This document shows, in pieces, positions 2,215-26,002 of a stretch of 64,000 nucleotides of DNA. The translations under genes were made by a program, and so were the position numbers. The DNA lies in the NCBI GenBank assembly GCA_002102555.1, contig MCFL01000017.1, positions 1 through 64,000 on the forward strand, given 5' to 3'. This stretch comes from Catenaria anguillulae PL171. Taxonomy: Eukaryota > Blastocladiomycota > Blastocladiomycetes > Blastocladiales > Catenariaceae. Below the pieces are notes generated by a model that saw nothing but the letters and a program-made list of their open reading frames with translations, made no database searches and was not told where the DNA came from. How positions within the stretch are numbered: the stretch's first letter is position 1; every line of letters starts with the position of its first letter.

Positions 2215-4539
2215 ATGATCTCCGCCGCAGCCCTTCCTCTTCCTCTGGCAACGCCATCGCACTCAGCCGATGTTGCTGCCGTTCAAATTCAAGCCAAGAA
2301 TGACCCGCGCCAGCAAACGGTCAAATTGCTCAAGAGTAGCATTGACCAAACCCACGAACTTTTGTCCCTGCTCAACCAAATTGTGCTCGCCGCGTCCGCC
2401 GCACAGCTCGCCGCGGGAACGGGCGGATTGCAGCCGCAAGCGGTTCCGGTGTCGCCGTCCTTCATGCCCATGATCGAGCTGACCATGAAGATTTTGTGCA
2501 GTCAGCAGGGAGCCTTCACGGCCGCTTGCTCGATTCCTGCTGCAGGGCACACGGCGGAGCATCATGAGACGTGTCGCCAAGAAGCCGACCAGCTACGGAT
2601 TCGTCTCGCATCAGCGCTGGCGCAAGTTGAATCATTGCGTGCGCAGTTCGGTCAGCCGTTTTATGTTCCTACCTCTCCTCCGGCCATCCCAGAGTACCGG
2701 TCTGCTGCGGCTCAAATCCGGTCGCGAAAACGTCAATTGCCCCACGATCATCAGTCGCCTCAAGCTGCATCGGCATCAGCGTTGCCCTTGCAGCAATTGG
2801 ACCACCGTATAGAGCCTGTCGAAAAGCGTCAAAAGCTGCCTATGCCGCCTCTCGCTGTTCCTCCGCCCGCCAAGCCACATGGATTCCCTCCTAAGCTGGC
2901 CATTTACTCGAAAAACTATACCAACACACGCTACACAGAGACTGGCCGGCTCGCCCTCAGCGTCCCGTCCACCACGGTTCTCGCCCATGCCCTCGTTCCA
3001 CCCCGTCAATTGCCGCCACAAACCCGGCAAAACTACGCTGCTGCAATTGTCGCATCAGTCATCACATCAAGTCAGCCCATGGCCACGGTTCTGAATGCGA
3101 TTGCAAGCAGATCATCACCTTGCACCATTCACGAACTCTTCGACAAGTGCAACCAAAACTCCGAGACGCGGCCCGCAGAGTGGTCAAAGATCGCTATGCG
3201 TTGGTCGGTGCGGCCCATGGTTCCAGTCCATGTCTTGGACCCTCGACAGTCCGAGCTGGCTGCCCCTTGGCGCTCGATGCTCGAATCGCTTTCGCCGGCA
3301 GAGGCCGAGTACGTGCAGGGCAAGAATCCTCGGATGGTGCTCATGGTGGGCGTGGAATGGGTTGGGTATCCTGAGGGCATGTTTGCGGATTCGCCCTCAC
3401 CAGATGGACAGTCAACGCGCGTGGGGCTTGTCGAGCGGTATGGGCTAGTCGTAGGTGATTTGGGCCGGTTGCCTGCGGCGGCAAAACCTGTATGTTGGTT
3501 TCGTTTCAGCACAATGGGCTAGATCCAATGGACTTGCTGACTGACGATCTGCCACTTTTATTATGGCGCTTGATGCGTTGAGCAGCCTCCTCGTACATTA
3601 CCAGTTCTTTCCTTTGGCCCGTTCCCTGCACTGCCACGACTTGGGAGTCGCCCGGCCAATCCGGTCGGACTACCAATCCCAGCCGCCGGGTCCGCGGCCA
3701 ACATTGCTTCAAGCTCGCTCTCAGATTCCGGAGGCAGTGACTTGGACGACAATGACGAGGAGGGCGGATGGGAAGTGTACGTGGACGGCGGCTACGTGCG
3801 CGTCGACTCGGCCTCGGACGACAACATTGGCGGCAGCGGGTCCGATTCCGAATCGCTCACCGATATTGACGTTGACTTGGAGTCTACGGCCATGGACGGG
3901 AACCCGCCCAGCCAGCACCAACAGCGGCAAGCGCACGGATTGCAGCCCAATGAGGCACGGACGCTTGTTGGCACCCCGAGCGCTCTGCTCACATTCATGT
4001 CCCGGCGCCGGCGCATTGGCAGGTACATTCACGGCCAGATCCGCGTGCACGGGCGCGTGACGGCCATTGTCAATGAACTGGTTGCGCCGCGCGCGTGGAC
4101 CACCGAGCAGCTCGACATTTACCTTGCTGCTGTGATTGCAGACGCGGGCAACGGGCTGGTGGCCCGCGTGTTGGCGTTTGCGTTCCGTCGCGGGCCAATG
4201 CGGCCGTTTTCGTTGAACGATTTGGTCGAAGGGGTTCCGGTGCAGGTCCAAGAGGGGAGTACGGCGAGAAAAAGGCTGAGGATTGCGTTGAGTAGATGTG
4301 TTGTGTGTCCGTTACATGTTGTGGATCGGTTGCCGCGAGAGGGCAATGGCGAGGTGTGGGATCGGTTGGTTTCGGCGGTCGCAGCGAGTGGTGGTAACGA
4401 GGTGCCGCAATCGGCAACGTTGGGCGTGATGGCAGGAGTCGAGCTGGTTGGGTTTGAGACGCCCAGGCCAGGGGATGAGATTCCGCCGTGCCATGCAAGG
4501 CGGTTTGTGGTGAGGGAGCGATACGCGATCCTCGTGTGA
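2215..4539 (+). CDS. Array gene 1: intact A-C module protein, function unknown
   Basis: Exon 1 is 2215-3489. A 96-base intron (GTATGT donor, acceptor at 3585 or 3582) leads to exon 2, 3586-4539, giving about 742 residues with no frame break. The ATG at 2215 is chosen because upstream in-frame codons include no better ATG. Residues about 35-150 look helical (IDQTHELLSLLNQIV; LRIRLASALAQVESLRAQF), then comes a basic cluster (RSRKRQL, VEKRQKL) that could be a nuclear localisation signal. Module A (about 222-415) has WSVRPMVPVHVLD and ends ERYGLVVGD. The linker is acidic (SDLDDNDEEGG). Module C (about 556-742) ends the protein with RFVVRERYAILV. This is the reference copy for the family in this window. 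Function is unknown; a nuclear role is inferred only from the basic cluster and acidic linker. Confidence 0.7.
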
Positions 4540-4829
4540 CTTTGCCAGATCCGTATGTACATGCATTTTTCCCTGCGTTTGGATGAACCACCTTATCAAG
4601 GAATCGAGACTGGTTCCGGATGTCGGCCATGACGTTCCTCCTGACTGCCCGAGCCAGTGTGATCACCCTGTCCATGAGGCCTCAACAAAAGAGAAATGTG
4701 CATTTCGACCTGTGTCCATGTTATTAATACATACGGTAAGTAATATCCATGTCAATGTCTCCAGTCTCCATGCATTGACAGCGACTCCGTTGGTCCAACA
4801 CTTGTGAATTCCTGCACACGCTCGCGATC

Positions 4830-7266
4830 ATGATTGACCACCAATCTCCCGGCGTCGGCAACCTGACGGTGCCACCGCCGCTGCAAAACGGCACCCAGCT
4901 GGCGGCTCAAGTTGGCCTGCGACGTACCAACAAGTTCCTCCAAGAAGGCATTGCTCAGACGCATCAGCTGCTGTCCTTGCTCCATCAACGGGCCGCTGCA
5001 ACTCCGTCCGACACAGTTGTGGCCGCCAATGTCGGCGGGGATCAGACCGTTCAATCACAGTCGCTGCGGCGAACACTGTCGGCCGGCACCTCCGACATGG
5101 ACATTATTCTCTTGACAACTCAGCTGCTGTGCAGCTGGCAGGCCGCGTCATCAGCCGTCCAGTCGGTTCCAGCATTTTCGGACGATGTAAGCCAGGCAGC
5201 ATCAGACTCAACAAGCTCAACATGTCAGAGCAAAGACTGCCGCGACCAAATCGGTAAGCTACGCATTCGCCTTGCTGCAGCATTGAGCGAGGTCTCCATG
5301 CTGCAAGGGCACTTGAAGCAGCCATTTGCTCTTCCGGAGCCACGCATACCAGTTTACGAGGAGCCACAGCCATCTCTTGCGCGCTTCCCGCAAGGGAGAA
5401 AAGCAGTGACCAAGGGTTCGCACGGCTCGGTGAAGCCGACATCTCATGTGACGGTCCAAGACGACTCTTTGCCCCCTCGCAAGAGGCAGCGTTCGTCCAT
5501 CTCTACTGTTCCTCCCGCAGGTCCCACTGCTTCCCAGGTAAGGTCATTCCCGACATTCGCATCTACATCAAGCTCACCAGGTTTTTTTTTCCGCTGCGTT
5601 TGTTTTGTTTTGACAGCTGCCCCCGCCGCGCAAGCCCCACGGCTTTCCTGACCGACTCGCCACTGCCGCCAAATGCTACGCCTCCTCCCGCTACACCTAC
5701 GGACGCATGTCGCTCACCACATCGCCATCCACCACCATCTTGGCACACATCCTCGTCCCGCCGCGCAAACTATCCCAATCAACCATCCAAGATTATGTTT
5801 CGACCATCACAAATTCCATGGGCTCTGTGAGCGAGCTCATGAATACCGTGCTTGCCGCGATCGCGACCTCGGACTCAACACACCCGCGCACCATTGCCGA
5901 AATATACGCGCGCCATCGACCGCCCGAATCGGCAGTCAAATTGTGGGCGCGGTACACGCTGCGCTGGTCAGTGCGGCCCATGGTTGCAGTCAAAGTGCTG
6001 GACCATAATCAACCAGAGGTTGCGCCTCATTGGAGGTCATTGCTGGATTCTCTTTCACCGGCCGAGCAGGCCTATATCCAAGGAAAGAATCCGCGCATGG
6101 TGTTGATGGTGGGCGTGGACTGGATCGGGTATCCGGAGGGCATGTTTGCAGATTCGCCCTCCCCGGATGTATATTCGACACGCGTGGCGCTCTGTGAGCG
6201 GTATGGGCTTGTGGTGGGGGATGTGGGACCAGTGCCCGATGTTGCGATTTCGATTGTACGGCCAGTTTCATCGTGTGACCGGGGTCCATGTTTGCGTTGG
6301 CTAACATGCCTTGATACGCGTTTAGGTGGACCCGCCGCACCCACCTCGGCGCCCAACTTCTGCATACGTCTTTGCCCCACCTCATGCTCCGACTCATGCT
6401 CACCCATCGTCCGGACTGCCCTCGGCCTCGACCGCCGCTTCAGCTCATGTAGCTAGCGGTTCTACGTCACGAGACTCTTTCGTCCCTCGTTCACCTGCGA
6501 GTTATTCACCAGACTTGCATGAGGAATGAGCTCAAGAAGAATCGGACCAAGACGATGGCGACGACGACTTGACTGCCGCAACGACGGAGCGATTCGGACA
6601 GCGACACGCCCCCGGCCCCAACACCGACCGCCTCCAACGCCCGCTGCACAACCCAACGAATCGCGCCGTCAAATAGCAACCCCAACCGCTCTGCTCACAT
6701 TCCGCAAACTCGACTGCCGCATCGGCCGATATGTCAACGGCCAGTTACGCGTTCGCCACAATCGCACCGCGCTTGCCAACGAACTGATTTCTCCACGCGC
6801 TTGGTTGCCGGCCCAGGTCCAAGCGCACCTTGCTGCCATCAACGCCTCGTCAGCAAGCCAATCGCTTGCCCGGCGCGTGCTCGCATTCGCATGCACGCGC
6901 GGCCCGTGTGCTCCGTTTTCCATTGCTGATCTGTTTGCACGCCAAGTGGCCGGTGCAGTCGGTCCGCGTGCGGGCAACAAGTCGGTGAGGACACAGCTGC
7001 GGCCGGCCGTGAACGCGGCGCTGGTGGGACATGTGTACGTGCTTGAACGGGTGGACCCGCGGAGGCACGCCGACGTAAGGGAACGGCTAGTGGCGGCGGC
7101 CGTGGCGAATGGTTCGGCGCTGCGCGGGGTGGCGAGCGGAGCAGATTTGGTGGTGGTTGCGGCTGTGGAGATGGTTGGATTTGAGGCGCCTAGTGCACAG
7201 GACGAGGTGCCGGCGTGGGCCGAGCGGAGGTTTGTGGTGAGGGAGAGATATGCCATAGTTGTGTGA
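4830..7266 (+). CDS. Array gene 2: A-C module protein with a disrupted linker
   Basis: Exon 1 is 4830-5537 and exon 2 is 5617-6255, joined in phase 0 across a GTAAGG/TTTTGACAG intron. A second intron (6256-6325) leads to exon 3. The N-terminal part matches array gene 1 (GIAQTHQLLSLLHQ; LRIRLAAALSEVSMLQG), followed by a basic PPRKRQRSS cluster. Module A has LRWSVRPMVAVKVLD and VGVDWIGYPEGMF, nearly the same as gene 1. The linker read from 6326 meets an in-frame TGA at 6527-6529 just before an acidic stretch (EESDQDDGDDD). At least one or two frame changes follow before module C, which reads cleanly from about 6650 to the stop at 7266 (RFVVRERYAIVV). Either the linker carries sequence errors, or the gene is a recent pseudogene with intact modules. 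A further intron spanning the linker is a third option. Confidence 0.6.
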
Positions 7267-7546
7267 TCGTGCAGTTGTCGGAGTGGCTTACGTGAAGTTG
7301 ACGTGTGGGTCTTTTTTGCTGCTCCACATGGTCCGTTTCTTCTCGGGCCAACATTTTCCGCAGTTCAAACTCGGAGAGTCAGTGGCAGGATACGAGCCTG
7401 GATCCCACGTCCGATCAACGTCCGGTTCGTGAACAGGATCGAAGGCCAATCAAGCGATGGGGTTATCGATTGGCCGCTTTCGCTCATGATGCCTGTCCTC
7501 TTGACGGTCGTTCCATGAAGTACTCACTATCTGCAATGAGCCCAGC

Positions 7547-9812
7547 ATGTCCGCCAACCCGCCATCACCATTAGCTATGTCGGCGTTGGCGTTGACATCG
7601 CCGCCATCGCCCATCAACCATTTGCGGGCCTGCATTCTCAAGACCCACCAATTGTCGGCAGGTCTGCACACTCTATGTGCGGGCACCGCCTCGCCCATGT
7701 CCTCGTCCAATGCACTGGATGACTCGACTCTCTTCGCCCTGCTGCCCATGGCAGCGTCCATTTTGGCCGAACAGCAAGCGGCCCTGCGGGCATATCATGC
7801 ACTCATGACCGAGCTGAGATCGTTGCAGTTGCGGGTTCGGGCAAAATCCGGTCAGCTCAGCATATCCAACTCCATGATTGCACGCCCGATGGCGGCTGCG
7901 AAATTAACGAAAGTCCCGTTCCCGGCGCATGCACCCAGCATCGCTCGTTCAGCAGCGGCAGCAGCACCAAGCACCTCTCGTTCAGTGGCTGGGGAAGAGC
8001 TGAAACCAGCTGCCAAACGGAGGGCAACCCCGCCAATGTCCGCAGACTCTGGTGGTCGGCCCGTTGCATCAAAGAAGCCCAAGCTCCATACCGAATCATC
8101 TGCCTCACGAGCAAGTACTGCAAGTGCCACATCGTCCACATCAGACGTAACCTTTTTCAAGAGGACTCTGTCGTCCTCGAACACAACCTCGGGCCAGCCG
8201 CGGCCTTATGCCTTACCAAAACGCTTTCTCTCGCAAGCCAACTATGCTCGCTATCGATACATGCACGGGAAACTCGCCGTCGACTCTCCAACAACCACGG
8301 TGCTCGTCCACTCGCTCTTGCCCGCACGGGACCTTGCACAGTCCAAGGCCGACGAGTACCTTGACCGCATTTCGTCCGCCTTTCCGGCAAAGGGCTCGGG
8401 CTTCATGCTGACTGTTCTCTCGGTGCTCGTCGCTGCTGGCCCCAATCGCTCGCTGTCTGCGCGCCAAATTGAGGCGCAGATCGATCCGGCGGAGTACATG
8501 CCGGCCAAGGCGTATACATATGCGGTCCGGTGGGCCATTCGGCCCATGGTGATTGCGTGTGATTTGGATGAGCGGGGCCAGTTCAGGCGTGAGTGGGAGG
8601 CGTTGGTCGCCCAGTTGACGGTCGAGGAAAGGCGCCGGGCTGAAGGGAGGGGTGCGAGATTGGTCAGGTTGGTTGGCATTGAGCTGGATGGGTACGAGGA
8701 CGGTGTGTTCGAGGATTCTATCTTGCCAAACTCTGACGTGGCGAGATTTCGGTTGAGGGAACGGGTTGCGATAGTGGTTGAGGAGACGAGCACCGAGGAC
8801 GGATATAGTTCAGAGTCAGATTCGGGGAAGTCCATGAACTCGAGCCGAGGTGATGACCAAGGTTTTGTCCGTGAATCAGACACGAGCGACTTGGACGATG
8901 GGAGCGATACTGAAGACTCGGATGCAATCAATATGGCACGTTCATTTTTGTCGCTGCTGTTCCACGTCCATTTTCTTCTCGAACTCACATTGTAGCATCA
9001 CATTTTTGTAGACCCAGCATCCTCGCATCACGGTGTCGCCGACGACACCGTTTGACCCGATCCACTCTCTTCCTGCGCTGCCCGCAACCGCCACATACTC
9101 CTACCCGCTTGCCCTCCCTCCCACACTTCTGGCGCAACTTCGCAAGTCCAAATCCAACTGCCTGGTCCGCTACTCGAACGGCCAACTTCAAGTCCAACAC
9201 TCGCACCGGCGTGTCCTCGCACACACGCTGCTCGCCCCTCGCCGACTTGATGTAGCCACGCGACTCGAGTATCTTGCCTACTTGAACGCGCAAGGCAAGT
9301 TCAAGATTGCCTCGCCAGCAATCATTAGCGCCTTGCTCCCGCTGGGATTCGGGACGCCCATGGCGCACGATGCCCTCATGGATACGTTGAGGCAATCAAG
9401 CACGTAACCAGACAATCTAATCGAGCGTGCTGTCGAGTATGCTTTCAATCGGCCCGTTTTCATTGTTGCGACGACGGCCAATCGGAGGGAACGACCCGAT
9501 TTATGGGCAGCTATGCTTGAATTTGTGGGCGAGGAAGAGGCGGTTCCGAAAGGTGCAAAGTTGGCATTGTTGCTGAGCGTGGATTGTGTTGGCTTGCAGG
9601 AACCGACGGGACGAGAGATTGTTGAGGATGCTCGGGACAGAACGTATGTGTTATCCGAGAGGTTGGCCGTGATTGCGCCAATTCCTGGTAAGCGAATTCG
9701 AAAGGAGCCGGCTGGTGACGGTGGACGCACACCTCCTCGGTTTGAGCGCGCCATCGAGTTGACGGATTCGGAAATGTCTCCGTTTTCTGACCTTGACGAG
9801 CGAACAGCCTGA
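7547..9812 (+). pseudogene. Array gene 3: A-B copy with in-frame stop, no C module
   Basis: The start ATG at 7547 opens a frame that runs to 8995. It has the family N-terminal segment (ACILKTHQLSAGLHTL), a basic cluster (VASKKPKLHTE) and module A (AVRWAIRPMVIACDLD; VGIELDGYEDGVF; LRERVAIVVEE). An acidic linker follows (SDTSDLDDGSDTEDSD). An intron probably lies between about 8940 and 9011 (acceptor TTTTTGTAG), but its donor phase does not fit cleanly. Module B begins near 9110 (VRYSNGQLQVQHSHRRVLAHTLL). It is interrupted by a TAA at 9405-9407 and continues in the same frame (YAFNRPVFIVATTAN; VLSERLAVIAP) to a stop at 9812. Unlike its neighbours it has no C module. The in-frame nonsense codon and missing module suggest a decaying copy, though a base-call error at the TAA cannot be excluded. 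Confidence 0.55.
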
Positions 9813-10100
9813 GTTATGTGGGCGAGGTGGTTGGGCAACACCAAAAGAATATTTTGCATGCTTTCGCAATCTTTCGTCTTGCCTTTGTGCATCATTCGCT
9901 GTATACCGGAATAGCAACCGACTCGCTGTGTAATGATGGGTTCCGCCTTGTAACACCTTCGTTTATCCCTGACCGAACTCAGCGAGTTACGCCCAGAAGG
10001 GCTGCGGACACGTACAGAAATCGTCCAACGCCCATGCGATGCAGGAACCCATCAAACAGCGCAACGACACCCTGAGCATTGCTATCTGCCCAGTTTCGCT

Positions 10101-13100
10101 ATGCATGCCGCAAGCCTGCACTCCATGCTCGGCGTTGCTCCGTCTGGTGCGGTTCCGCAAACACCCCGTCGTCTCGCAGCCACCGTCAACACCAACCTCC
10201 TTCAACTCCTCGCCACGCTCTATGGCCAGGCGGCAACCATCTCTGCACTTCAAGCCAATTACGATACAGCACCATGTGCACACACCCAAGCGCACCAAGC
10301 TCTGAGCCAAGGCATCGCCAGTGCCATCAAGCTCACGACGGACGCGCTGTCGGATTACCAAACGCTAGTCGCAGCTGATCCCAATCAACCATCGTCGCCA
10401 CCGCTGCCGCCAGACAAACTGTCGGAATCAAGTGGACGTGGTGCCAACCCGGAGGATGATGTGGTCACTCGACTTGAACTGGAAAGCCACCAGTTGCGGC
10501 TTCGGCTTGCGGCCGCGCAAGCTCGCACTCGCAATTTCCCGATGCTGTTGGACAGCCGGGCGTCGCTCGATACATCTGCGCCTGATGATCGGCACAAGTC
10601 TCGCAAGCGGATTCGTATGGAAGAGAGCGATTCCTCCGAAGGCGACTCAATACCTGCTTCATCGCCATCGACTCGGCAGGCCAAGCTTGTTTTCAGCTCT
10701 CAATTTGGTGACGTGCGTTGTTCTGATCCCACTCACCATTGCTGTTTGTGATTCAATCATACCTTTACTGATGGCTGTCTCATCCATATGTATAGCCACC
10801 ACTCTCCCGCAAGCGCCATGCTATGTCTGCACGCTTTGCGGGCTATGCCTGCACCTCCCGAGCGCGTGTTCACGATGGCTACCTCGCCATCGACGCACCC
10901 AACACCACCGTCCTCACGCACACTCTTGTTCCACCTCGCCCGATGCCTGCGGCCACCATGGACGCGTATGTCTCTGCAATGTTCGGCGTGACCGCAAATG
11001 CAACAGACAGGATGAAGGACGTACTCTCAATTATTGCGGCAGTGAGTCCGCTCGAGTCTGTATCCGCATCAACGATTGCCGACCGGTTTACCGGGCCCAA
11101 GTCTGATCGACATGGATTGTTGACGTGTGCGATGCGCTGGGCAATGCGGCCCATGGTTACGGCTCAGGAGCTGGATGTGAACGGTGCTTACCGAGCGGTT
11201 TGGGAGCAGCTTGCCGCGCAACTCACTGCCGACGAGCGAGACCTAGTGCAGCATTCGACATTGGTGTTGGCGGTGGGTGTAGAGATGGATCACTATCCGG
11301 ATGGATTGTTTGCCGATTGTCAAGACTTTGATGCGCAAGCAACCATGTTTCGGATTCGGGAGAGGATCGCTCTGGTGCATTTGCATCAGCCGGCGCTGAC
11401 AAGCGTGGCCGCAAGACTTCCCTTGCCGGACCCAGCGTTGCTGTCATTGGATGACGATATGGTATACATGGTCTTCTCTTTTGCTTCCCATTCTTTCCAG
11501 CCATTTTTTTAGTTCATCCTCATTTCTCGTCCCCGAATCCCCAGTCACATCGCCCGCGACCTCTTGCTCGCCATGGTCGGCTTCCGCCTCGCACGACTCG
11601 ACTTCAATGGAATCAAGAAGACGCAATGGATACGGGAAGCCAGAGTGATGATGAGGCTGATGACGAGGAAGGAATAGAGCGTCCCGAGCAAGCTTTTGCT
11701 CCAAATCCTCCACTTCAACCCGTTCATTGTCCTCCTGCACTCGATTCACATGAGTCAGGCCAACAAGAATCATCTCAAGCAAATGATAATATGACACAGC
11801 CCAAGCAAACAGCACCAGCACTCCCGACTCGCGTCGCACCCTTCGAACCCGCCGTTCTCTTCTCCACTCTGCCATTGCTTCAAGGCTCAAACCCTGCTCC
11901 TAGCCGCACTTTTGCCCTTCCCACGTCACTCGCAGAACGGGTCGCACGCCGTGCCGACTGGACACGTGGCCGCTTCGCCGACGGCTTGCTGCAAGCCCAC
12001 CAAAAGCACCAGCGCCTCCTTTCTCACCAGCTCGTTCCCCCGCGTCCCCTTGACGGCACGGCGCGCACCCAATATCTGGCCACGCTCAAGTCGCAACGCC
12101 AGCTGCACAAGTACGCGCCCGTTGTTATCGAGACACTTTTACAACACGGGTTGGGCGTGTACGTGGCACACCAAGAGTTGCTCAGCCAGATTTCGACCAC
12201 GTTGAAGGCCAAGGCGAATGATTCGTTGAGTTTTGCCATTGTGCGGCCCGTTTACGTTGTTTCGAGTGTGGATCGCGATACTCGGCCCGATTTGTGGAAT
12301 GCATTGGTGGCATTGGTGGATCCCGCGGTCTGTGTGCCTGACACTGCCCAGTTAGCGCTGACAATTGCGGTCGAGTGCCTGGGGTTGGAAGAACCAACGG
12401 CGGAAACGGAGGTGCCGCAAAGGGAGATGCGCAAGTATGCATTGCGGGAGCGAATCGGGATTGTAGTCAAGGATGTGGAAGCGAAGAAGAGTGCCAAAGC
12501 GTCCCAAAAACGTACGTCGCGTTTGGGTAGTCCAAACGATAGGACAAGTGAGGATGGTATTGAGGACAACGGCGACGACGACGCCGAGGCAGAGGTATCG
12601 TTGAGGACCGACTCCAATCAGATTCGAGCAGTTGCTGGCCCGTCTACAACGCAGCGCTTCCAACCGCATCCACGCGCACAACTTGCCTTTCCGGCCACCC
12701 TCGCCCCTGACGCGCCCAACCGCCGCATTCAACGCTTTGTATCTGGCCGACTTCAAGTGTCAGACGCCTCGATCGTGCTCGCCGACCAGCTTGCGCCGCC
12801 TCGCCCACTGCCAATCGACGAGTACATTGCACTGACGCACCAAGAAGTAACCGGGACGGTCACGCGCGAGATCTTTGCATACGCGATTACTCGTGGGCCA
12901 GGGCGCCCGTTCGCAAAGCTGGATCTGGCGAGCGCGATTGGCGGATTATGCGACGCCCACCGCTCCAGGACATTGCTCAGGGCACTTGTGTATTGTATGA
13001 TTCGGCCGCTGTTTGTTGTGAATGGGGTGTTGGATCGTGGACAGTATGCACAGGTGTATGAAGAGTTGGTTCCCGAGGCAATCGCTCGCGGGACAGTGGC

Positions 13101-13251
13101 GGATGCGCCTTCAATACCAAAGGAGGCGCGTTTGGTCCGGTTGCTGGGTTTGGAGATGTGTGGGTTCGAGTATCCCCATGCAGAGGATGCGTTGCCGGCG
13201 TGGGAGGACAGGCGGTTTGTCATCCGCGAGCGGTATGCGCTGGTTGTCTGA
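10101..13251 (+). CDS. Array gene 4: three-module A-B-C protein
   Basis: This is the longest member. Exon 1 is 10101-10712 and exon 2 is 10796-11461, both junctions phase 0 (GTGCGT/TATAG, then a GTATAC donor). Exon 3 begins near 11500-11513 and ends at 13251. Exon 1 carries the helical segment (SHQLRLRLAAAQARTRNF) and a basic RKRIRMEESDSSEGD block. Module A (AMRWAMRPMVTAQELD; VGVEMDHYPDGLF) is in exon 2. Exon 3 holds an acidic linker (SQSDDEADDEEG), module B (SFAIVRPVYVVSSVDRD; IAVECLGLEEPTAET; ALRERIGIVV), a second acidic linker and module C (YCMIRPLFVVNGVLD; LGLEMCGFEYPHAED; IRERYALVV). The start of exon 3 is uncertain: a Ser-rich frame and the main frame both look coding between 11520 and 11640, so an indel or a different acceptor is likely. 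Function is unknown. Confidence 0.65.
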
Positions 13252-13454: not shown

Positions 13455-15137
13455 ATGCCCATGCTCGCCACCAAGTTGTCAGCCGCGGCTACCGCCGCTG
13501 TCCGTCAAGCGATGTCGGTTGCATCTGTTGGCAGCTGCCTCCTTCGCCACCATGTGCGATTTCCTTCCGGTCACTGTGTCGTTGCACAACCATCGTCGAA
13601 TCGGGCCGCGTTCATGTCGACGGTGGCCACAGCCAAGAATCGCAAAGCTGCTGCTGCCGATGACACAGTTCCAACCCTGATCATCAAGGACGACTGTTTG
13701 GCTTTGAACTTGCCCGGGTCTGGATCTGGATCGAGCATCTTTCACCACGTCTGGCTCCGTGACAACTGCCCGTGTCCGGCGTGCATTCACCCATCCACTC
13801 GCCAAAAGCTGCACTCGTCGGGCGACATTCCAACCGACATTCAGCCCATCCGTGTGCAATGGGTCCGCAGCAACAGTGATCCTTCCGCCGCCACCGGAGC
13901 AACGTCGAAACGGAAGGCGGAATCACACATGTTTGCGCACACCGACGCTGCCGACCAGTGGGTTCTTGAAGTCGAGTGGCCGGCGTTTGCGTTCCCGTCC
14001 CGTGGCGAGCGGGCCGGTAACGATAACGCACAGGCGGATGCGGCCGTGTTGGGCGATACCGAGCCGCACGTGTCTCGGTACTCGGCTAGCTTTTTGCGTC
14101 GGTGGAACTATTCATCGCCAAACCGTGATGCCATCCACCCAAACTATCTGTACCCTGATCCGGAGCCGTGGTCAGGTGCCGAAGTCGATGCTCAGGGCCA
14201 TTTGCACGTTGACTACAACTCGTTGCCGCCCATTGAGCAACTGCTTCCCATTGCGGCTTCTTCACCAGCCGCGGCACCTGCTAGCAGTGTTGCTGACCGC
14301 ACTCGCCATCTGACATTTCCACCTGTCACGTCACTGCCGCCCCACATTCTGGACCGCTTTGCAACCCACGGCCTCGTCTTTTTCCACAACGTGCCCACCA
14401 ACCGCGGCGACGACTATGTCGAAACCCTGGCCAAGCGGTTCGGCCACCAACTGCGCTGGACGTTCTACGGCTCGTCCTGGGACGTGAAATCCGTTGCGCA
14501 ATCCACCAACATTGCCTACACCAACCTGTTTCTTGGGCTGCACATGGACCTCATGTACTTTGAGGCCCCACCCGGGCTGCAGTTCTTGCACATGCTGCGA
14601 ACCAACGTCAAGGGCGGCAGCTCGCTGTTTCTCGACATGCTGCACACGTGGCGGTCGTTTGTGAAGGCACACCCGCGAGACGTTTGGCAGCCATTGACAA
14701 GTGTGCCGACGGCATTTCACTATGCGCACGCCCACCATGCGCCGGGCGACGGGCCGCATTGGTTGGCGAGGCAGCATGCCTTGTCGACGGATGAGCACGG
14801 GTCGCAAATGTATTATGCGCCGCCATTCCAAGGACCGCTGATGCCGCTGCCGAGTGGTGACGTGAGTTGGGCGAGCGATCCCCACGTGGTCAAGGCGTGG
14901 TACAAGGGGATGCGGGCGTGGGACGAGCATGTGCGCAGGCAAAAGATGGTCATGATTGATCTCAAGCCGGGGGATGCGGTGCTGTTCCATAATCGGCGCG
15001 TGTTGCATGGGCGGACGGCATTTGATTCGGTGCAGGATGGGGTGGGTGCTGGAGAGAAGGCGGTCCGGCATTTACGTGGATGCTATGTGGATTGGGACGA
15101 GTTTTTGGATCGTTGGCGGGTGAGTCGGTATCGTTAG
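13455..15137 (+). CDS. Gamma-butyrobetaine dioxygenase-like enzyme (TauD/BBOX family)
   Basis: A single intact exon encodes 560 residues. The family is Fe(II)/2-oxoglutarate oxygenases of carnitine synthesis (gamma-butyrobetaine hydroxylase or trimethyllysine hydroxylase). The N-terminal domain has the typical HHVWLRDNCPCPAC motif (residues about 96-109), whose cysteines and a later His bind zinc in the known enzymes. The TauD domain follows from about residue 290 (HGLVFFHNVP). The iron ligands are visible as LHMD (His363, Asp365) and the distal His518 in VLHGRTAF, with the 2-oxoglutarate-binding Arg expected in RHLRGCYVDWDEF. The first 60 residues are rich in Ala, Ser and Arg and lack acidic residues, which would suit a mitochondrial presequence. 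A later Met (FMSTVATAKN) could be an internal start for a cytosolic form. Choosing between the two hydroxylases needs a tree. The gene is convergent with the ankyrin-like gene. Confidence 0.88.
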   Translation: MPMLATKLSAAATAAVRQAMSVASVGSCLLRHHVRFPSGHCVVAQPSSNRAAFMSTVATAKNRKAAAADDTVPTLIIKDDCLALNLPGSGSGSSIFHHVWLRDNCPCPACIHPSTRQKLHSSGDIPTDIQPIRVQWVRSNSDPSAATGATSKRKAESHMFAHTDAADQWVLEVEWPAFAFPSRGERAGNDNAQADAAVLGDTEPHVSRYSASFLRRWNYSSPNRDAIHPNYLYPDPEPWSGAEVDAQGHLHVDYNSLPPIEQLLPIAASSPAAAPASSVADRTRHLTFPPVTSLPPHILDRFATHGLVFFHNVPTNRGDDYVETLAKRFGHQLRWTFYGSSWDVKSVAQSTNIAYTNLFLGLHMDLMYFEAPPGLQFLHMLRTNVKGGSSLFLDMLHTWRSFVKAHPRDVWQPLTSVPTAFHYAHAHHAPGDGPHWLARQHALSTDEHGSQMYYAPPFQGPLMPLPSGDVSWASDPHVVKAWYKGMRAWDEHVRRQKMVMIDLKPGDAVLFHNRRVLHGRTAFDSVQDGVGAGEKAVRHLRGCYVDWDEFLDRWRVSRYR

Positions 15138-15249
15138 ATGAATGGGCTCAAGGTGTAGGGACTGTCGATTCTGCCCTATCGTCGATGACGAGAGGCTGTG
15201 TTGTGTGCATTGTACATGGCTCTACATTGAAATTCATTAACACTCGCAA

Positions 15250-17364
15250 TCACAACGACAACAAATCAGGCCGAGCGTCGCACCACCATCTGAGCACAGC
15301 CCGCCTCGCCTCGTCCACGCACTCGGCGTCGGCGCTCTCGTTTTCATTCCACTCCGACGCCGGATTCCAACCCGGCGGCACCTTGATCTTGAGGCCAGAT
15401 ACAGCAGCCCACCATTCCAAGAGATGGACTCGTTTCAGCCGAGAGCAGGTCTTGAAAGCCTCCTCGCTCCACTCGAATGGATGATCCGATGTGAGCAGCC
15501 AATCTAATGTCGCAATCGGCCACACCCAGTCATCTGTCTCGTCGTCACCACCGCCGTAAATCTCCGACTCGTCCATACGATCCAGGTTGATTACCTCTGG
15601 CAACAAGCCAAGGTGGCGTAGCTGCTCCAAAACCACCGTGTCGCCACGGTTCGCCAGAAGGCCAAAGTAATACTCGGTCAACACCGGTACAGCGGCAGGC
15701 TCATGTGCCAGAAACACGGTCAGAACTGCTGGGTAGGCCGAGTGAAAATCTTCGGAAATCACGCTCGCGACAGAGGCATGGGCAAGTATGGCCGGATCAT
15801 GGTGCCGCCTGAACCATTCAATGATGGTCCACTGGTTGCAGCATGTCAACAGACTCCTGAGCTTTTCCAAATCATTGTGGGTTGCCCGAGTCGCCCTGAG
15901 CCACCACTCAAACACTTGATACGACGACAGCCATTCGCCCATCTGTCCAAAGCTCGCCCACTTTCTCTTGCGCGTAAAGATGCCCGACTTGTCCCACCAA
16001 TCAAGCACCTCAAGGTTTCCTGTCGTGCATGCCTTCTTGATTGCTCGACCCGAGTACTTGTAATCCAACCCAGAATCAAGCCACCATTGCAGGACGTCCG
16101 TGTGCCCTTGCCTGCTTGCCTCGTCCATGGCGTCCTTGGCGTACAAGTCGCCGAACTGTTGGGGATCGAGGCGACGCCGAAACCAATCCAAAAGGGCGAT
16201 ATGGCCCATTGCAGAAACGAGATCGAGCAACAGTACACAGCTGGAAGTCTCGATGCCGGGACAAATGGACTGCCAAGCGCCAACCAAGTACTCCCAGTGT
16301 GAGTAACTGTACATGAACGCGTCCAGAGTGGGGCAAGGGAGACTGTGGCCGTTAAGAGGGAAACCGGTCTTGTACAGCCAATCGAGGACATGAACATGAC
16401 CAAGTGCGGCGGCAAAGCTGTGCAGATGGCTCGCATAGTCCTTGAATGAAGCACGTGTAAGCCGTGAAGGGTGGCCAAAGTAGTATTGGGCCAACTCGAT
16501 CTGTCCGTTTGCGCACGCCAAGACAAGGAACATGTCCAATTCGCCCTGCACAGCCGCCGTCGCTATGAATGCGTCCACCACCCTTTTCGCAAACACGAGC
16601 GAGTGATCCGAATCGAGGAAGTCAAACTCGGCTGTTGTGAGCTCAGCGACAACAGCGCTGCTCAAATCTGGGCAGAGTTCATTCTTAATCCACCAGTGAG
16701 CCACCTTGAAATGGCCACAGCACAGGGCAACCAGCATGCACCTCGTGCCATCTACTTGAGTTTCCAAACCAATCCCATAGTCCTTGAGCCACCATTCCAG
16801 AGCAAACAAGCGGCCATTGGCCGACAGATCCAGAGCGCAAGCTTGCTTGGCCGTCAAATCCGGAGTCCAGTCCATATCTGTCGCCGACATGCCCTTCTTT
16901 TCAGTGTCGGGAAAAAACAAAAACCCGTGATCCACACACCAATTGCGCACTTGGTCCGACCCAAAATTGGGCATCTGCGAGTACGAAACGATCTTGCTAC
17001 CGAGCGGCAACCCCTTTGCGACCCACCAGTCCAGCACATGAATGAATCCCCGCTCGATGGCCAGCCTTATCACCTTATCCTGCTTGTATTGCAGAGGTCG
17101 ATTGAACGGCGGTTGCGTCATGGTAAGCAACAGGTCAAGCAAGTGCACGCTGCCGATGCGTGCGCCGATTTCCATGCGCATGTGCGGCGTTTTCGTGATG
17201 CCAATGTGCGAAGCCTCGGGAGCGACATGGTGTGGGACGACGTTGAGGAGCGAGGCGAGTGTGACTTGGTCTGGTGGGAGCAACAGAGTCGGAAGCGACC
17301 GGGCGAGCAGAATGATGATTGGCCGCACGAGCTCATCTGGCAAGTTGCACGAGGTTTCATTCAT
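15250..17364 (-). CDS. Ankyrin-like repeat protein, 704 residues
   Basis: One uninterrupted frame. I take the ATG at 17364 (MNETSCNLPDELVRPI) rather than the more upstream one at 17481, because the basic, low-quality leader before it looks non-coding. The N-terminal part resembles the short F-box-like or helical leader seen in fungal repeat proteins (LPDELVRPIIILLARSLPTL). The rest is a series of degenerate ankyrin-type units of about 30-50 residues. They are recognisable by recurring segments such as GHVHVLDWLYKTGFPL, GHIALLDWFRRRL, GHTDVLQWWLDSGLDY and GNLEVLDWWDKSG. The repeated (L/V)xWW pattern is typical of a large repeat-protein class in zoosporic fungi and oomycetes. No enzymatic domain is visible, so a protein-binding role is the only reasonable inference. 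The 3' end is 112 bases from the convergent oxygenase gene. Confidence 0.75.
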   Translation of the reverse strand: MNETSCNLPDELVRPIIILLARSLPTLLLPPDQVTLASLLNVVPHHVAPEASHIGITKTPHMRMEIGARIGSVHLLDLLLTMTQPPFNRPLQYKQDKVIRLAIERGFIHVLDWWVAKGLPLGSKIVSYSQMPNFGSDQVRNWCVDHGFLFFPDTEKKGMSATDMDWTPDLTAKQACALDLSANGRLFALEWWLKDYGIGLETQVDGTRCMLVALCCGHFKVAHWWIKNELCPDLSSAVVAELTTAEFDFLDSDHSLVFAKRVVDAFIATAAVQGELDMFLVLACANGQIELAQYYFGHPSRLTRASFKDYASHLHSFAAALGHVHVLDWLYKTGFPLNGHSLPCPTLDAFMYSYSHWEYLVGAWQSICPGIETSSCVLLLDLVSAMGHIALLDWFRRRLDPQQFGDLYAKDAMDEASRQGHTDVLQWWLDSGLDYKYSGRAIKKACTTGNLEVLDWWDKSGIFTRKRKWASFGQMGEWLSSYQVFEWWLRATRATHNDLEKLRSLLTCCNQWTIIEWFRRHHDPAILAHASVASVISEDFHSAYPAVLTVFLAHEPAAVPVLTEYYFGLLANRGDTVVLEQLRHLGLLPEVINLDRMDESEIYGGGDDETDDWVWPIATLDWLLTSDHPFEWSEEAFKTCSRLKRVHLLEWWAAVSGLKIKVPPGWNPASEWNENESADAECVDEARRAVLRWWCDARPDLLSL

Positions 17365-17586
17365 TTTTGGAGGATTTTCATAGGGTAATCTGTGTGCAGA
17401 GGTTCGAGAACGCTTGAGACAATGTCTTGGTCGAGTGTTGTGTCCCTTCGTGTTCGCACCAGTCACTCTATGGTGTGCCACAAAGGAGACTCCAAACCCA
17501 TGAATAGACGAGTCATTTTATAAAGAGTTTGGAAGTGAAAGTGGAAAACAAAGGCGAAAGGGAACGGATCGATAAGTCCCTGCAAG

Positions 17587-18687
17587 CTAGGCGCTCACAT
17601 TCTTTTCAATCTCGGCCGCCACCTCATCGCCCAGCACCTTCTTGGTAATCTCCATGCTAATGCTCCACAGCTTGTCAGCCAATGCCGGATCCCGCGCAAA
17701 CCTTGTGGGTGTCTCGGGCTTACCCTGCGGCACAAAGTAGGTACCATTGGGCACGCCGAGCTCGGGGAACGTGGCAGCCGCTAGCGACGTACGGGATCCG
17801 TTCTCGGGCGAAATGGACACGTAAGGATACATGAACTTTGCAATGCCGCCAATGATGGGCCCAAGACCCGCAGGCAAGTTGCGATCGAGTTCCGTGTTGA
17901 CCACACCGGGGTGCACGGCGTATGATTGGATTGGGGCAGTTTGGCCGCGAGCGCCTTGGTAAAGAGCAAATTGGACAGTTTGGATTGCCGTACGATTTGC
18001 TGGCAGAGTAGACCTTTTCGGCTTCCGATTTGGTACCCTCAGGCGGTGGGTTGGGACAAACAGTTGGTCGAGGTTGAGCAGGCCAACGGAATAAGGCGAC
18101 TTGTGGGCAATCGACGACAGGTTGATAATGCGACCTGACCCGTCGCGCGGAATCAGCGGCAACAGCAGCGTGGTAAACACAAAATGGCCCATGTGGTTGG
18201 TTCCAAACTGCGATTCGATCCCGTCCTTGGTGAGCGCGAATGGGACGGCCATGATGCCAGCATTGTTGATGAGAACGTCAATGCGTTGCTTCTTTTGGCG
18301 AATGGCGCGAGCAGCCGCCTCGGCGCTCTTGAGCGATTGCAGGTCGAGCTGGATGAATTCCAGCTTGCCTGCGGATTCCACATTGGCTTGCTTGAATTCA
18401 GATTGGATCTTTTGGATCGCCTCGGTGGCCTACGATCCGTAACAACGCAGTGGGAACACGTGTGTGGGTGAGCGTCGAGGAACTGACCTATGTATGCCAG
18501 AAATGACCCACAGACAACCACGAGAACTTGCTACCTTGGCTTCCGAGCGACAGCACAAGATCACATCGCCACCTTTGCGGGCCAATTCCTTGGCCGTGAT
18601 GAGTCCAATGCCCGTGTTGGCGCCAGTGACGACAAATGTCTTGCCGACGAGAGAGGGAATCTGAGCGATCGTAAAGCCTGCGGACAT
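17587..18687 (-). CDS. Short-chain dehydrogenase/reductase (SDR copy 1), frame-broken
   Basis: Exon 1 is 18687-18535 and exon 2 is 18429-17587, with a 105-base intron (GTAGCA donor, ATCGTAG acceptor). The fold is a classical NAD(P)-binding [11 protein letters not shown] near residue 20, NNAG near 110 and LSS further on. It is closest to the retinol-dehydrogenase/WWOX-like group. Between about 18055 and 17935 the long frame runs through nonsense residues. Shifting frame restores VYSASKSYG, then [15 protein letters not shown], then back to SYAVHPG. Three single missing bases explain this exactly, and the catalytic Tyr-x3-Lys lies in that stretch. Either the sequence has consensus errors or the gene has lost its active site. 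Substrate is unknown. Two further copies lie at 26.0 and 27.9 kb. Confidence 0.7.
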
Positions 18688-19172
18688 GATTGTGTGTGGA
18701 ATATATAAATGTTTGCGAATTTGCATGGGGTAACGAGGTGGAAAAGTCACTCTTTCAAGTGGTTGAATGAGTCGGGTTCGAAGCAAAGGCGACGGGGCAT
18801 GCACCGCTTTTGAACCCTGCCCTCAAGTCTGCGACAACGCCGTATGCATCATCTCCAGCAAACTCTACGCATGTTTACATCAAGCATCGTTTTCACAATC
18901 CTGCCAATCGCCAGCAGGGGCAATTGAGGATTGATGTGTGCCACATGTCTCAGGTTGTGGCTGTGATCAGTCAGCCGTTTGAATGCGAGCCATTTGTCAG
19001 TTGATCCGAGATCCGTGGTTCCACCGCGGTCGTTTCTCGTTCTGAGCCTCGTTTTCAAGGTACAAATCGTCCGCACAAAGAAAGCAGATGCCATACAACT
19101 CATGTGAAGTAATATGTACACTTTATCGAAGAAGTCAAAACGGGGGCCAATGCGGAAAAAGTAAGCCTGATC
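18688..19172. other. Intergenic, 485 bases, nothing recognised
   Basis: Upstream of SDR copy 1 and downstream of the Yar1-like gene, both minus-strand. It should contain the SDR promoter. A short AT-rich stretch (gaatatataaatg) lies at about 18700-18712, some 15-25 bases before the start codon. That is closer than a TATA box would usually be. Nothing else was recognised. Confidence 0.4.
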
Positions 19173-19900
19173 TCATGAAGAAGCAGATGCCAGACGACGA
19201 CGATGAAGCAGCAGCCTGCGCAGATGTTTCTCTTCTGTCGCATCCTCGGCATCCTCATCCATATCGGGATCCATGTGCTTGAGCAACTCCACCGCTACCT
19301 TCTCGTGTCCCGCGTCTTGTGCCTCGATGAGCGGTGTCTTCTTTGCCGCGTTCGTCAGCTGCGTCAGGGAGAGACAAGCGGGTCAACATGGACATGAGTG
19401 CGGAAGCAGGTCAGTGTCGTAGTCGAAGAGAGGAGCGCCAACATATGTAAAAACATACAAGCAAGTCTGCGCCAGCCTTGATGAGCAGCGAAACAATCTC
19501 CTCGTGTCCGTTGACGGCACCCCAGTGCAACGGCGTGTTACCCTGGGCATTGGCCGCGTTCACATGCATGGCGAGTAGGTGCTCGAGGAGGTATGAAACA
19601 ATGTCTGCAATAAACGGGAATAGGACGTGGAATGTCGGACATGGTGGGAGTGAGCTTTTCATTGCCAGGGTTCGGCCGACCAGCGCCCATCGGTGAATCG
19701 CCCATACCAGCATGTCCATTGGCCGACGCCATATGCAATGCCGTATTCCCACTGTCGTTTGCACGGGCAAGAATGGCCTGTGGTGTTGATCCGGAATGCT
19801 GCTCGATGAGGCGCTGCACTTCGGTCTTGAGTTCGTCCAGCTCGCCGTAGCGGGCGCACAGGAGCACTTCGGAAATGTCGATTGACTCGGATTGGGTCAT
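19173..19900 (-). CDS. Small ankyrin-repeat protein, Yar1-like
   Basis: Three exons, 19900-19708, 19604-19459 and 19358-19173, join in phase to give 174 residues. The donors are GTATGG and GTATGT. The order is: an N-terminal helix (SEVLLCARYGELDELKTEV), one ankyrin unit (SGNTALHMASANGHADIVSY), a second (QGNTPLHWGAVNGHEEIVSL), a third (KKTPLIEAQDAGHEKVAVE), then a very acidic tail (DPDMDEDAEDATEE) followed by a basic end. Layout, length and the TALHMA / GNTPLHWG signatures match yeast Yar1, the ankyrin chaperone of ribosomal protein uS3 (Rps3). The acidic tail fits such a role. Other small ankyrin proteins share this fold, so orthology is likely but not proven. Confidence 0.7.
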
Positions 19901-20379
19901 TGTCGGGAGCTATGATCGCAAAGAAGGCAGGAGACGAGAGCTGTCCGGTCAGCGCATTGAGTTGAGGGACATCGGGCACATGTTACATGGGAATGCATTG
20001 GGGAATCGTCGCAGGCTTACAGTGATATTGATGTGTAGTGGTTGGTTCAATACCATTTCCTATTTTCCGCTGGCACCATCGTTGGTCGGCCAATTGGACC
20101 AGCGATGAGTGTGGCGCGAGTTGGAAGTCGTGGTGGTGCAGGCGCATCCTCGATGCACGTGATCCGTATCTATGGCTTCGTTTTCCTTTTCGCTTCACGA
20201 GCCTCCGCCCGCTTCCAAGAAAAGTACGAGAGACCATGCACATACAAAACAAAGACTCAAGACAAGAATGAAATCATACAAGAGCGACCTGTAAACTTGG
20301 CCAATATAGAAAAAGGACAATCAACAAAACAAATGAACTCGATTCACTGACACTCCACGACAAAAAGACGACGGTGGTT
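19901..20379. other. Intergenic, 479 bases
   Basis: Lies between the Yar1-like start and the eIF5 stop, both minus-strand. It must hold the Yar1-like promoter and the eIF5 3' end. An A-rich stretch at about 20225-20300 could belong to the eIF5 3' untranslated region. No other feature was seen. Confidence 0.4.
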
Positions 20380-21720
20380 TTACTCCTCATCATCCTCGTC
20401 ACTCTCCTCCTCCTCGTCACTCGCCTCCTCGAGCCAGTCAAGGAAGGGCTTTGCGGCCTCGCGCACAGCCTGTGCCTTTGCCTTGCTGCCCGTCCACTTC
20501 TTTGTCACCTTCTTGCCCCACGCCAAAATGGCAGCCTCATCGGCCAAATCCAGCTCGTACACATTCTTGAGCATGACGGGCACCTTCTTTGTGGCGTCTG
20601 CCTCGGCCACCATGCGCTCGAGTCCACCGAGGAAGTACTTGTGCGCACGGGCATTGCCCGCGTTCAACTTCTTGAACACGGCTGCGCGCGCCTTGAGATC
20701 AGCGCCAATCGAGTCAGGGCGCACAAGCACTTGGGCAAGCACGTGCGTGGCCAAGTGCGCCGCAATGCCGGCCTCCTTGACCTCGGCCAAAATGTCGGCC
20801 ACCGTGGCCTTTGGCTTGGTCTGCACGTAGGTGGCGAGCGAGTCGAGCGGATCGTTTTCGAGATCGTCGTCGTCGTCGGACGCAGCAGCTGCCTTCTTTG
20901 ACTTGGACTTTTTCTTGCCCTTCTTTTCCTCGTCGACGAGACCCAGCTTTTCCACGCCCTTGAGCAGCTCGGCTTGGCGCTTCTTTTGCGCCGCCTCGTC
21001 GAGATCCACCGACCAGTCGTCGTCCTTGAGGCGCGAGTCTCCCAAGGTCTTTGCTTCAGCCATGATTTGCTTGTGCAGCTCATCGCCAGAGTCGGCTTCG
21101 TCGTCCGAGCCCTTGGGCGTTTGCTCCTTGGACTTTGTGACCTTGCCCTTCTTGCTATTGTTGCAATGACATGCAAAGCAAGTGAGCAAAACACAGACAC
21201 ACACACTTACTCAACCATCAGGCATGAGGATGAGGATGACGTACCCACGGCCCTTCTTGCCAATGGCACCGACGACAGCGCCCTCGGGCGGGTTGTTCAA
21301 AATAAACGTGGTCAACTTGTGGCGCATATCAATCGGGGTGACATGCCCACACGCCAAGCAATGGCGCTCAATCATGCCATTGATGATCTTGAGATCCGTC
21401 TCGGGGTTACCGCACCCGCCGCACAAGACAAACTTTTCGATAAAAGTGCCAACAAGCTCTTGCAACCGCTGCGCGTCGTGTGCACCGTTGATGATGTACC
21501 TATCGTTCTTTGCATCGTGCTTTGTTTGCGCGCCCAGCTCGGTACCAAAGAACTTGCACGGGTACATGGGCGGGCGGTGCAGCGACCGGGCCACTTCGGT
21601 CAGGTTGGGCAACACCGTCTTGATGCCGTTACCGGAGCCCTCGATCTTGCACTGGATCGGGTCCATCTTGTAACGATAGAAGGCATCGTCCTTATCACCA
21701 CCAATGTTGATGCGCGACAT
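20380..21720 (-). CDS. TIF5: Translation initiation factor eIF5
   Basis: Exon 1 is 21720-21245. A 90-base intron (GTACGTC donor, AATAG acceptor) joins in phase 2 to exon 2, 21154-20380, giving 416 residues. eIF5 is the GTPase-activating protein for eIF2 in the 43S pre-initiation complex. The N-terminal domain is unmistakable: DAFYRYKMDPIQCKIEGSGN with the catalytic-type Arg, GTELGAQT, and a C4 zinc ribbon (CGGC ... CLAC). A Lys-rich linker (KKGRGKKGKVTKSKEQ) spans the splice junction. An acidic segment follows, then the C-terminal W2/HEAT-like domain (KYFLGGLERMVAE; WGKKVTKKW) with an acidic-aromatic end (PFLDWLEEASDEEEESDEDDEE) that in known eIF5 binds eIF2-beta and eIF3. No anomalies. Confidence 0.95.
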
Positions 21721-22374
21721 GATGAAAACGTGATGTTGAAAAGTTTGAGAGTGGGTGGGACGATTACGTGGCGGATGCACGAAAAGATCGACAGTCGATG
21801 GTACGATGGATTATGGGTGGAGTTGGTGGAGGCGCGGGCGACAAAGGCATCCAGCAGGACCTTGCGGCGGTGGTGGAGGCAGCGTGGATGGCGGGATTAC
21901 GGGGGAGGTGGGCGGCACGAAGCGATCAGAACCGGGGAAGTGGGTCGGATGCGTTCGCTGGCGAGGTTGGAGAGTCGATTGCCGTGGGTTGCAAGGCTGC
22001 GTTCGTAGATAGATCAGTCACGATCGGTGGCATACTTCATGGAATCGTGTTGGGCCGTGTGGATTGACTCAGCAAGCACACAGTGTGTGGCGATCAGGCA
22101 AAGACAATGAAAACGTGTGTTGATGGTCAACAAGAGTGTTTGGCCTGGTCAGCTGCTGTCATGTGATCGTCTCCACGCGAGTTTCGAGTCTCGTGCCCGC
22201 ATCTCATTTGTGTGCGTCTCCACCTTGGCGACAAGAGATCGGTAACAGGGCCATGAAGATGATGAAAAGTGCGGGCACTCCCTGCAGACGTCGAATCACT
22301 TTTGTCTTTGTCCATGCGACGATTCTCTCTTTGGAAGGGTATGCTTGCATGTCTGTATTTCACAAACTCACGCA
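21721..22374. other. Intergenic, 654 bases
   Basis: Contains the eIF5 promoter and the 3' region of the membrane-protein gene ending at 22375. The part near eIF5 is G-rich on the plus strand (21830-21990). Open frames here have no protein-like character. No clear regulatory motif was seen. Confidence 0.4.
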
Positions 22375-23646: not shown

Positions 23647-24138
23647 TGTGGTAGTGGGTGCAGTCAGCCTGTGCTGTTGTACGTGTCGTAACGAGGGAAT
23701 ACAGACCGGTAGCCGAGGAGTCGTCTGTATTTGTACGACGAAAACACCGAACGCAATTGCGCCTCAAGCGGCGGCGGGGCGCCAGGCAATGCCAAGCAGG
23801 CGGGCTATCTTCAGGGTTACAGTTTCTGCAAACATGCACAGGCTCATTTAATTCAAGGTTCCAGTGGACAACAGTCTTTGTATGCCAGCATGTGTCTGTG
23901 AAATTTTTGTCGCGCAAAACGCGGTTACGGTGAACCACGGTGTTTTGGGTCCCACACACCCGTGCTTCGCCTGAACCATACACAGGTGCTGCCGATGGCA
24001 TGGTGGTAGACCCGATTGACCTGCAGAGGTAGGTAACATGAGGGTTGGCACAAGTCAACGAACAGCATTGTGCGGGAAATGATGTAACAGATGTTGTGAG
24101 ACAAAGTGATCAATATTTCCTTACGAAATGACTATGTC
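23647..24138. other. Intergenic between the two membrane-protein paralogues
   Basis: A minus-strand frame at 23537-24058 contains several cysteines (VCRNCNPEDS, NCVRCFRRTN), but it overlaps the start of paralogue 1 in another frame and has no counterpart before paralogue 2. I therefore treat it as non-coding, or at most as an untranslated leader. If paralogue 1 has an upstream signal-peptide exon, it would lie here. Confidence 0.35.
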
Positions 24139-25373: not shown

Positions 25374-26002
25374 GAAGTTACATATGTATAAAGGTCTATT
25401 GAACTTGATTCAGGTTCGAAGGAGCTGGGGCACAACCAGGTTGGTTGGTGCGGAAGGTCGCGCCGCTCCTGCAGGTATGAGGCGGGTCGGCACTGTTAGC
25501 ATGGCTCCGTCATTGCCATGAAATCGAATGGTCTTGCTGTGTGAGTGCGATGGCCGGGGACTTGGGGGGTTCCATCTCGCTATAGTTCCCTCAGCGTGGC
25601 GGAAGCATAGACAAAAGCATGCTCGGTTACAGTCAATATATTGAGACATGATTGATGGCAAGAAACGATGCGGTGAACCGCAGGTTTCAAGATACTTGCA
25701 ACATGAGACATGATGAGCACGAGGTCGAGCCTGGGTCGAGCTGACCGGAAACGCTCGGCCAGCCAGCCGACCGTTCGGGTCATGAGCCATAACATAAATA
25801 TACTTGATGAGTTTGCTTCACAGCTATGTTCGTAGCTCGCTTGGACTTCGACGCAGTCGGACAGGTACTGCACATTCGGAGCCCGCCTGTCTTTCGGGGA
25901 TCTTTGGGGGAAGGAGTGGAACGATGAACGATAATGTGCCGATGAACGCAGTGAAAGTGGAACAAAAAACGAATGGTCGGAACACAAGAAGCTCTCATTA
26001 CA
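25374..26002. other. Intergenic, 629 bases
   Basis: Between paralogue 2 and the broken SDR copy 2. Minus-strand frames (for example near 25600-25980) are short, Ser-rich and without recognisable domains. Promoter of paralogue 2 expected at the left end. Nothing else recognised. Confidence 0.35.

Follow-up and report, generated by a model that had tools for sequence, protein, structure and literature searches.

The window analysed here is a stretch of 64,000 nucleotides from the blastocladiomycete Catenaria anguillulae PL171 (contig MCFL01000017.1, positions 1 to 64,000 of the forward strand) and represents the start of contig C79 in an assembly of 41.07 Mb with 457 contigs. Positions 2215-13251 contain four genes on the plus strand that, according to their open frames, carry nine related modules of 183-193 amino acids (n = 9) between them (Table 1). 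Each gene opens with an N-terminal region roughly 200-240 residues long, and the modules that follow are designated here by gene number and type (A, B or C). All nine modules are present. Module 3B carries an in-frame TAA, and the A-to-C linker of gene 2 (6257-6690) shows an acidic stretch in another frame as well as an in-frame TGA, and a simple GT-AG script search found no intron in this linker. The same kind of script proposed introns at three of the six junctions tried. A copy of gene 4 on contig C17 is known as BCR44DRAFT_277837 (P0001) of the same strain, and its exon with modules B and C is 96% identical. The first approximately 80 residues of P0001 use another frame than the N-terminal frame of gene 4 (10101-10712), in which an LRxRLAxA-like motif recurs that genes 1 and 2 show as well; the start given by P0001 was therefore rejected for gene 4 and is probably misannotated.

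That the nine segments on these four same-strand genes form one family, as the initial annotation proposed, is borne out by the pairwise comparison, in which all 36 pairs score higher than any of 100 shuffles (1C-2A scores lowest with 54, where the shuffles reach at most 47). The conserved blocks quoted earlier are present in the module alignment, and in eight aligned window modules (3B was left out for its stop) residues R14, G19, L35, R39, E182 and R183 (1A numbering) are invariant. Identity amounts to 37.8% between modules of the same type in different genes (n = 10, 30-59%) versus 22.9% between different types within one gene (n = 6) and 23.0% between different types in different genes (n = 20), i.e. 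the types are indeed more alike between genes than within a gene. A profile scan of fetched stretches of the genome yielded 48 module-length matches (31 after collapse at >=90% identity). A midpoint-rooted tree of 48 modules was reconstructed. Type A appears as a single clade (support 0.999), most B modules including the window's B type group together (0.858) and the C modules of the window cluster together (0.869). Five C-position modules, from contigs C112 and C390/C53, make up a group of their own beside the window's C (0.826), the two of C200/C53:45401 are placed next to A (0.863), and modules on C113, C124/C40 and at C79:382 kb branch off beside B. In this tree A and B hold up as types from locus to locus, whereas C does so only in the array of the window and the related modules on C17; since the C-position modules of the other loci form no single clade with it, the third of the three proposed types is a loose one outside the array.

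Table 1. Position of genes, modules and further features in the window
Feature	Position	Strand	Basis or remark
Gene 1: N-terminal region, module A, intron, acidic linker, module C	2215-4539	+	open frames; candidate intron 3490-3585 frame-preserving
Basic cluster EKRQKL, nuclear-localisation-like, before 1A	2821-2840 (approximate)	+	by eye
Module 1A	2890-3465	+	pairwise comparison; structure predicted
Candidate intron, 1A/1C	3490-3585	+	script; alternative donor at 3451
Module 1C	3982-4536	+	pairwise comparison, profile scan
Gene 2: N-terminal region, candidate intron 5538-5616, module A, linker, module C	4830-7266	+	open frames, intron script
Basic cluster PPRKRQR before 2A	5470-5492 (approximate)	+	by eye
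Module 2A	5650-6228	+	pairwise comparison, profile scan
Module 2C	6688-7263	+	pairwise comparison, profile scan; C17 copy split over two frames
Gene 3: N-terminal region, module A, acidic linker, module B	7547-9812	+	open frames, module comparison
Basic cluster SKKPKL before 3A	8070-8088 (approximate)	+	by eye
Module 3A	8216-8779	+	pairwise comparison, profile scan
Module 3B	9117-9677	+	in-frame TAA at 9405-9407; C17 copy open
Gene 4: N-terminal region, candidate intron 10713-10795, modules A, B, C	10101-13251	+	P0001 match, intron script
Basic cluster KSRKRIRM before 4A	10593-10620 (approximate)	+	by eye
Module 4A	10826-11380	+	pairwise comparison, profile scan
Intron 4A/4B	11462-11542 (approximate)	+	by eye from P0001 exon junction; missed by the script's donor pattern
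Module 4B	11920-12468	+	pairwise comparison, profile scan
Linker 4B/4C, basic then acidic	12502-12620 (approximate)	+	by eye
Module 4C	12691-13248	+	pairwise comparison; structure predicted

Prediction of module structures, proposed initially as a check, was performed for 1A (helix 62-72, short strand 78-79, helices 80-87 and 95-107, strands 110-116, 148-157 and 177-189) and 4C (helix 56-68, short strand 74-75, helices 76-83 and 89-104, strands 108-111, 147-156 and 175-185). Both models show the winged-helix order a1-b1-a2-a3-b2 plus at least one later strand, and in both a segment of about 60 residues, containing a helix and a strand, separates b2 from the last strand. A Foldseek search with these models gave no significant match and a viral structure search nothing at E<=0.001; a second-look structural aligner ranked winged-helix chains at the top for both. 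With 1A the Fur-type chains score 8.4 and RPC62 6.6, and with 4C the RPC62, TFIIE and RNA polymerase III chains, which turn up as structural neighbours of 1A as well as 4C, are tied with the Fur-type ones. Judged from these models the module probably adopts a decorated winged-helix fold. The initial annotation had named a strong match to a widespread domain as evidence against its view; such a likeness was found by structure, but it is moderate and no sequence match accompanies it. The module resembles the winged helices of Fur, Zur and PerR in structure, with no sequence similarity detected (no Fur-family match in Pfam for nine frames or in Pfam and NCBIfam for eight modules), and differs from them by the insertion of about 60 residues, the N-terminal strand and the tandem arrangement of modules on one chain.

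Sequence searches gave no name to the family. No usable match was obtained in Pfam (19 family frames and eight modules; four weak matches with E 0.045 to 0.39, under the Pfam cut-offs where these are shown), in NCBIfam for the eight modules (two at E 0.11) or in PHROGs (a single match with E 0.07, to a family without a name). Profiles of eight and of 27 modules reached best E values of 0.45 and 0.48 against the PDB sequences, which were taken as chance. Queries with one protein found no family member among viral or prokaryote contigs. In a protein database, with about 7993 candidates scored per search, only P0001 and P0002 were found, and both belong to Catenaria anguillulae. This does not speak against relatives in other organisms, because a query with modules of other Catenaria loci missed their own proteins. 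The literature search found no paper on the module family and none for 'BCR44DRAFT', and papers combining Blastocladiomycota and winged helix appear unrelated judging by title.

Among 17 pairs of near-identical copies the whole modules show 94.5 silent versus 76.5 replacement changes, corresponding to a rate ratio of about 0.29 (0 to 0.69 in single pairs). Judged from these sequences the modules are under purifying selection, and therefore the genes are probably real and most of them still used. Given this ratio, strong diversifying selection acting on the modules as a whole was rejected, and the word 'fast' in the initial annotation finds no support inside the modules.

Outside the modules, the N-terminal region is common beyond doubt to genes 1 and 2 only (none of 200 shuffles scores as high). 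For the other pairs the score is reached by 1 (genes 1 and 3), 2 (genes 2 and 4), 6 (genes 2 and 3), 24 (genes 1 and 4) and 81 (genes 3 and 4) of 200 shuffles. Inspection by eye reveals acidic stretches between the modules, and these linkers, together with the basic clusters (Table 1), suggest that the proteins are nuclear.

The boundaries of helix a3, the proposed recognition helix, were fixed from the model before its charge and variability were analysed in the 31 collapsed modules. Columns 95-108 (a3 plus the conserved Arg108) represent the most positive window of 14 columns (+1.94 vs a median of +0.23). Without Arg108 the charge of a3 is +1.10 (positive in 20 and negative in 5 of the 31 modules), the third by element after b4 (+1.87) and the N-terminal stretch (+1.39). 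Its identity is 0.23 within and 0.09 between types, compared to 0.60 and 0.43 for b4. In the 17 copy pairs a3 contains 1 replacement and 7 silent changes versus 70.6 and 33.4, respectively, in six paralog pairs (Fisher test of copies vs paralogs: p = 0.003 for a3, p = 0.057 for the rest of the module). The 30-codon windows with the lowest within/between replacement ratio start at 80-90. With 13 codons the ratio is lowest at 89-94; window 95 is 7th of 175 and tied second lowest in replacements among copies. This pattern is consistent with a specificity-determining helix and is no proof of selection. Several observations weigh against this interpretation: a0, a2 and the turn are about as variable as a3, which is only 35th of 175 windows in divergence; the comparison of a3 with the rest among copies alone gives p = 0.066; silent changes between paralogs are close to saturation; the turn preceding a3 is poorly aligned; and several structural elements were tried. 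The role in recognition suggested by the initial annotation is supported in part, namely as DNA recognition by a predicted recognition helix whose charge is mostly positive and which is constrained among copies but differs from paralog to paralog.

The analysis directly shows the modules and their types, the clustering, the purifying selection and the changes in a3. On this basis we suggest, at about even odds, that the four genes encode nuclear DNA readers composed of tandem winged-helix-like modules; nuclear location, DNA binding and a regulatory role are inferred. In such a Catenaria protein an N-terminal region and a basic, nuclear-localisation-like cluster would precede two or three modules. 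Each module would be a winged helix (helix a1, a short strand, a2, a3 and strand b2) with an extra N-terminal strand formed by the LAHxLxPPR block, and b2 would be separated from the last conserved strand b4 (RERYA) by the approximately 60 residues with a helix and the long strand b3. DNA would probably be contacted through helix a3, and two or three modules on one chain could read a composite site, with partners bound via the acidic linkers or the N-terminal region. Within the cluster of about 100 kb, tandem and inverted duplications would have given rise to new genes, and divergence of their a3 helices would lead to different target sites.

The main competing explanation, for which we see perhaps half the probability, is that the winged-helix modules serve as a protein-contact scaffold, as in RPC62 and TFIIE, so that the proteins attach to a polymerase or chromatin complex without direct contact to DNA. 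Chains of this kind neighbour both models (see above), hRPC62 is described with four winged helices on one chain (PMC4495717), and the strongest conservation of the module lies outside a2-a3, which also speaks against direct reading of DNA. The 1A model is closer to the Fur-type chains, however, and the most basic window coincides with columns 95-108. On general grounds, a core polymerase subunit is not expected to occur as a large tandem family, and RPC62 and TFIIE-alpha are not known to form a clustered gene family. RPC62 (C82) and TFIIE-alpha, with their extended winged helices, are eukaryotic and nuclear, but the Catenaria module has the extra strand and the insertion, and neither the PDB sequences (8- and 27-module profiles) nor Pfam revealed a sequence link to them.

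An unlikely option is a new alpha/beta enzyme domain with R14, R39, E156, E182 and R183 in the active site and a merely superficial likeness to winged helices. These residues are among the best conserved columns, and the lack of a significant Foldseek match counts in its favour and against the winged-helix reading. Conserved charged residues are generally known to serve as structural salt bridges too, though; no significant enzyme family was found in Pfam or NCBIfam, and two models from different modules both have winged-helix chains at the top of the second-look ranking. Slightly less probable still are degenerating repeats or remains of mobile elements that have no present function. Broken members (3B in the window, 2C on C17 and fragments on C259, C390 and C17) and the near-identical repeat adjoining the array would fit, but the low replacement rate of the 17 copy pairs, the open frame of eight of the nine window modules in the C17 copy and the absence of a transposon domain from 19 family frames (Pfam) argue against decay. 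Effectors or recognition proteins acting on a nematode host are the least probable explanation: Catenaria anguillulae is termed nematophagous (PMC5666781) and clustered multi-gene families are generally common among effectors, but a simple hydropathy scan (not a signal-peptide predictor) of the four predicted N-termini showed no strongly hydrophobic stretch (the highest mean, 1.75 over 11 residues in gene 1, is mildly hydrophobic), the basic clusters are of nuclear type, the modules are under purifying selection and PADLOC models matched none of the eight modules (0 families), so that the effector or defence role considered initially is not upheld.

The four-gene array exists as described before but is only part of a larger cluster. 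A second copy is located on C17 (C79 2088-17494 vs C17 32968-48350, 95.5% identity); the contig of P0001 has 71,991 bases, as C17 does. Outside the shared block, the sequences at C79 17600-25600 and C17 20001-28000 match other places over short parts only, so C17 could be either the other haplotype or a duplicated segment. It holds two further genes at 10.7-15.7 kb on the opposite strand, and inverted duplicates of 5.8 kb flank its array (43808-49582 vs 5152-10955, 92.9%). The border of this duplication falls inside a C module, where a chimeric gene end is likely, and would explain the near-identical ends of P0001 and P0002. The initial view that ancestral genes were duplicated whole holds mostly but not at this border. 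A reverse match of 97% (C390 196766-204270 vs C17 62481-70000) reaches the end of C390, and therefore the arrays of C390/C53/C200 and C17/C79 probably constitute one cluster of about 100 kb, with the linking of the contigs inferred. By our own count it contains at least eleven genes when copies are collapsed and fragments are not counted. Further members occur on C113, on C124/C40, at C79:382 kb and on C112, the last with a broken counterpart on C259. With these copies and loci, and no usable match to a named family, the description as an unrecognised clustered multi-module family grown by duplication is supported.

C390, C53 and C200 cover the same stretch and are 95-98% identical where all overlap, which is unexpected in a simple two-haplotype assembly. 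A frame of 791 residues at C390:171742-174114 (minus strand) starts with a B-type module, continues with a long proline- and serine-rich linker and ends, by eye, with a degenerate C-like module. Upstream of the array, positions 1-2034 of the window are a near-identical repeat (given as 100% identity) that also occurs at C235:44966-46999, C124:220074-222117 and C124:183966-186008; it may continue past the contig start and its two open frames have no Pfam match. A telomeric location was considered and rejected, as no exact fourfold TTAGGG occurs in the assembly; the search was for this repeat kind only. Downstream, 13455-17481 encodes a gamma-butyrobetaine-hydroxylase-like TauD dioxygenase (plus strand) and an ankyrin-repeat protein (minus strand), and the stretches holding these genes have two more copies each on C17. 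Several short-chain dehydrogenase frames in tandem copies follow at 17590-29047 (e.g. 26015-27043 vs 27869-28899 with 82.7%).

As an analogy, the proposed DNA readers may be compared with the KRAB zinc-finger clusters of mammals, genes described as rapidly evolving (PMC12575710, PMC10547256). Both are clustered, duplicating and multi-module, and in both the DNA-reading element is thought to diverge; the likeness lies in gene arrangement and pattern of change only. The Catenaria fold differs, the genes are far fewer, and Pfam found neither C2H2 fingers nor a KRAB box in the family frames. In its boldest form, a long shot at present, the family would be a fungal counterpart of these clusters that duplicates and recombines, with recognition helices diversified by selection after each duplication, distinct composite sites for each gene, possibly in mobile elements of the Catenaria genome, and a domain that represents a new class of decorated winged helix. 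If the proposed DNA-reading function is true, an undescribed domain family would be added to a very common fold, together with a fungal case of a DNA-reading element that duplicates and diversifies and can be traced module by module in one genome, which contains both paralogs and near-identical copies. If the fold alone is true, hypothetical proteins of an early-diverging fungal genome would leave its dark part.
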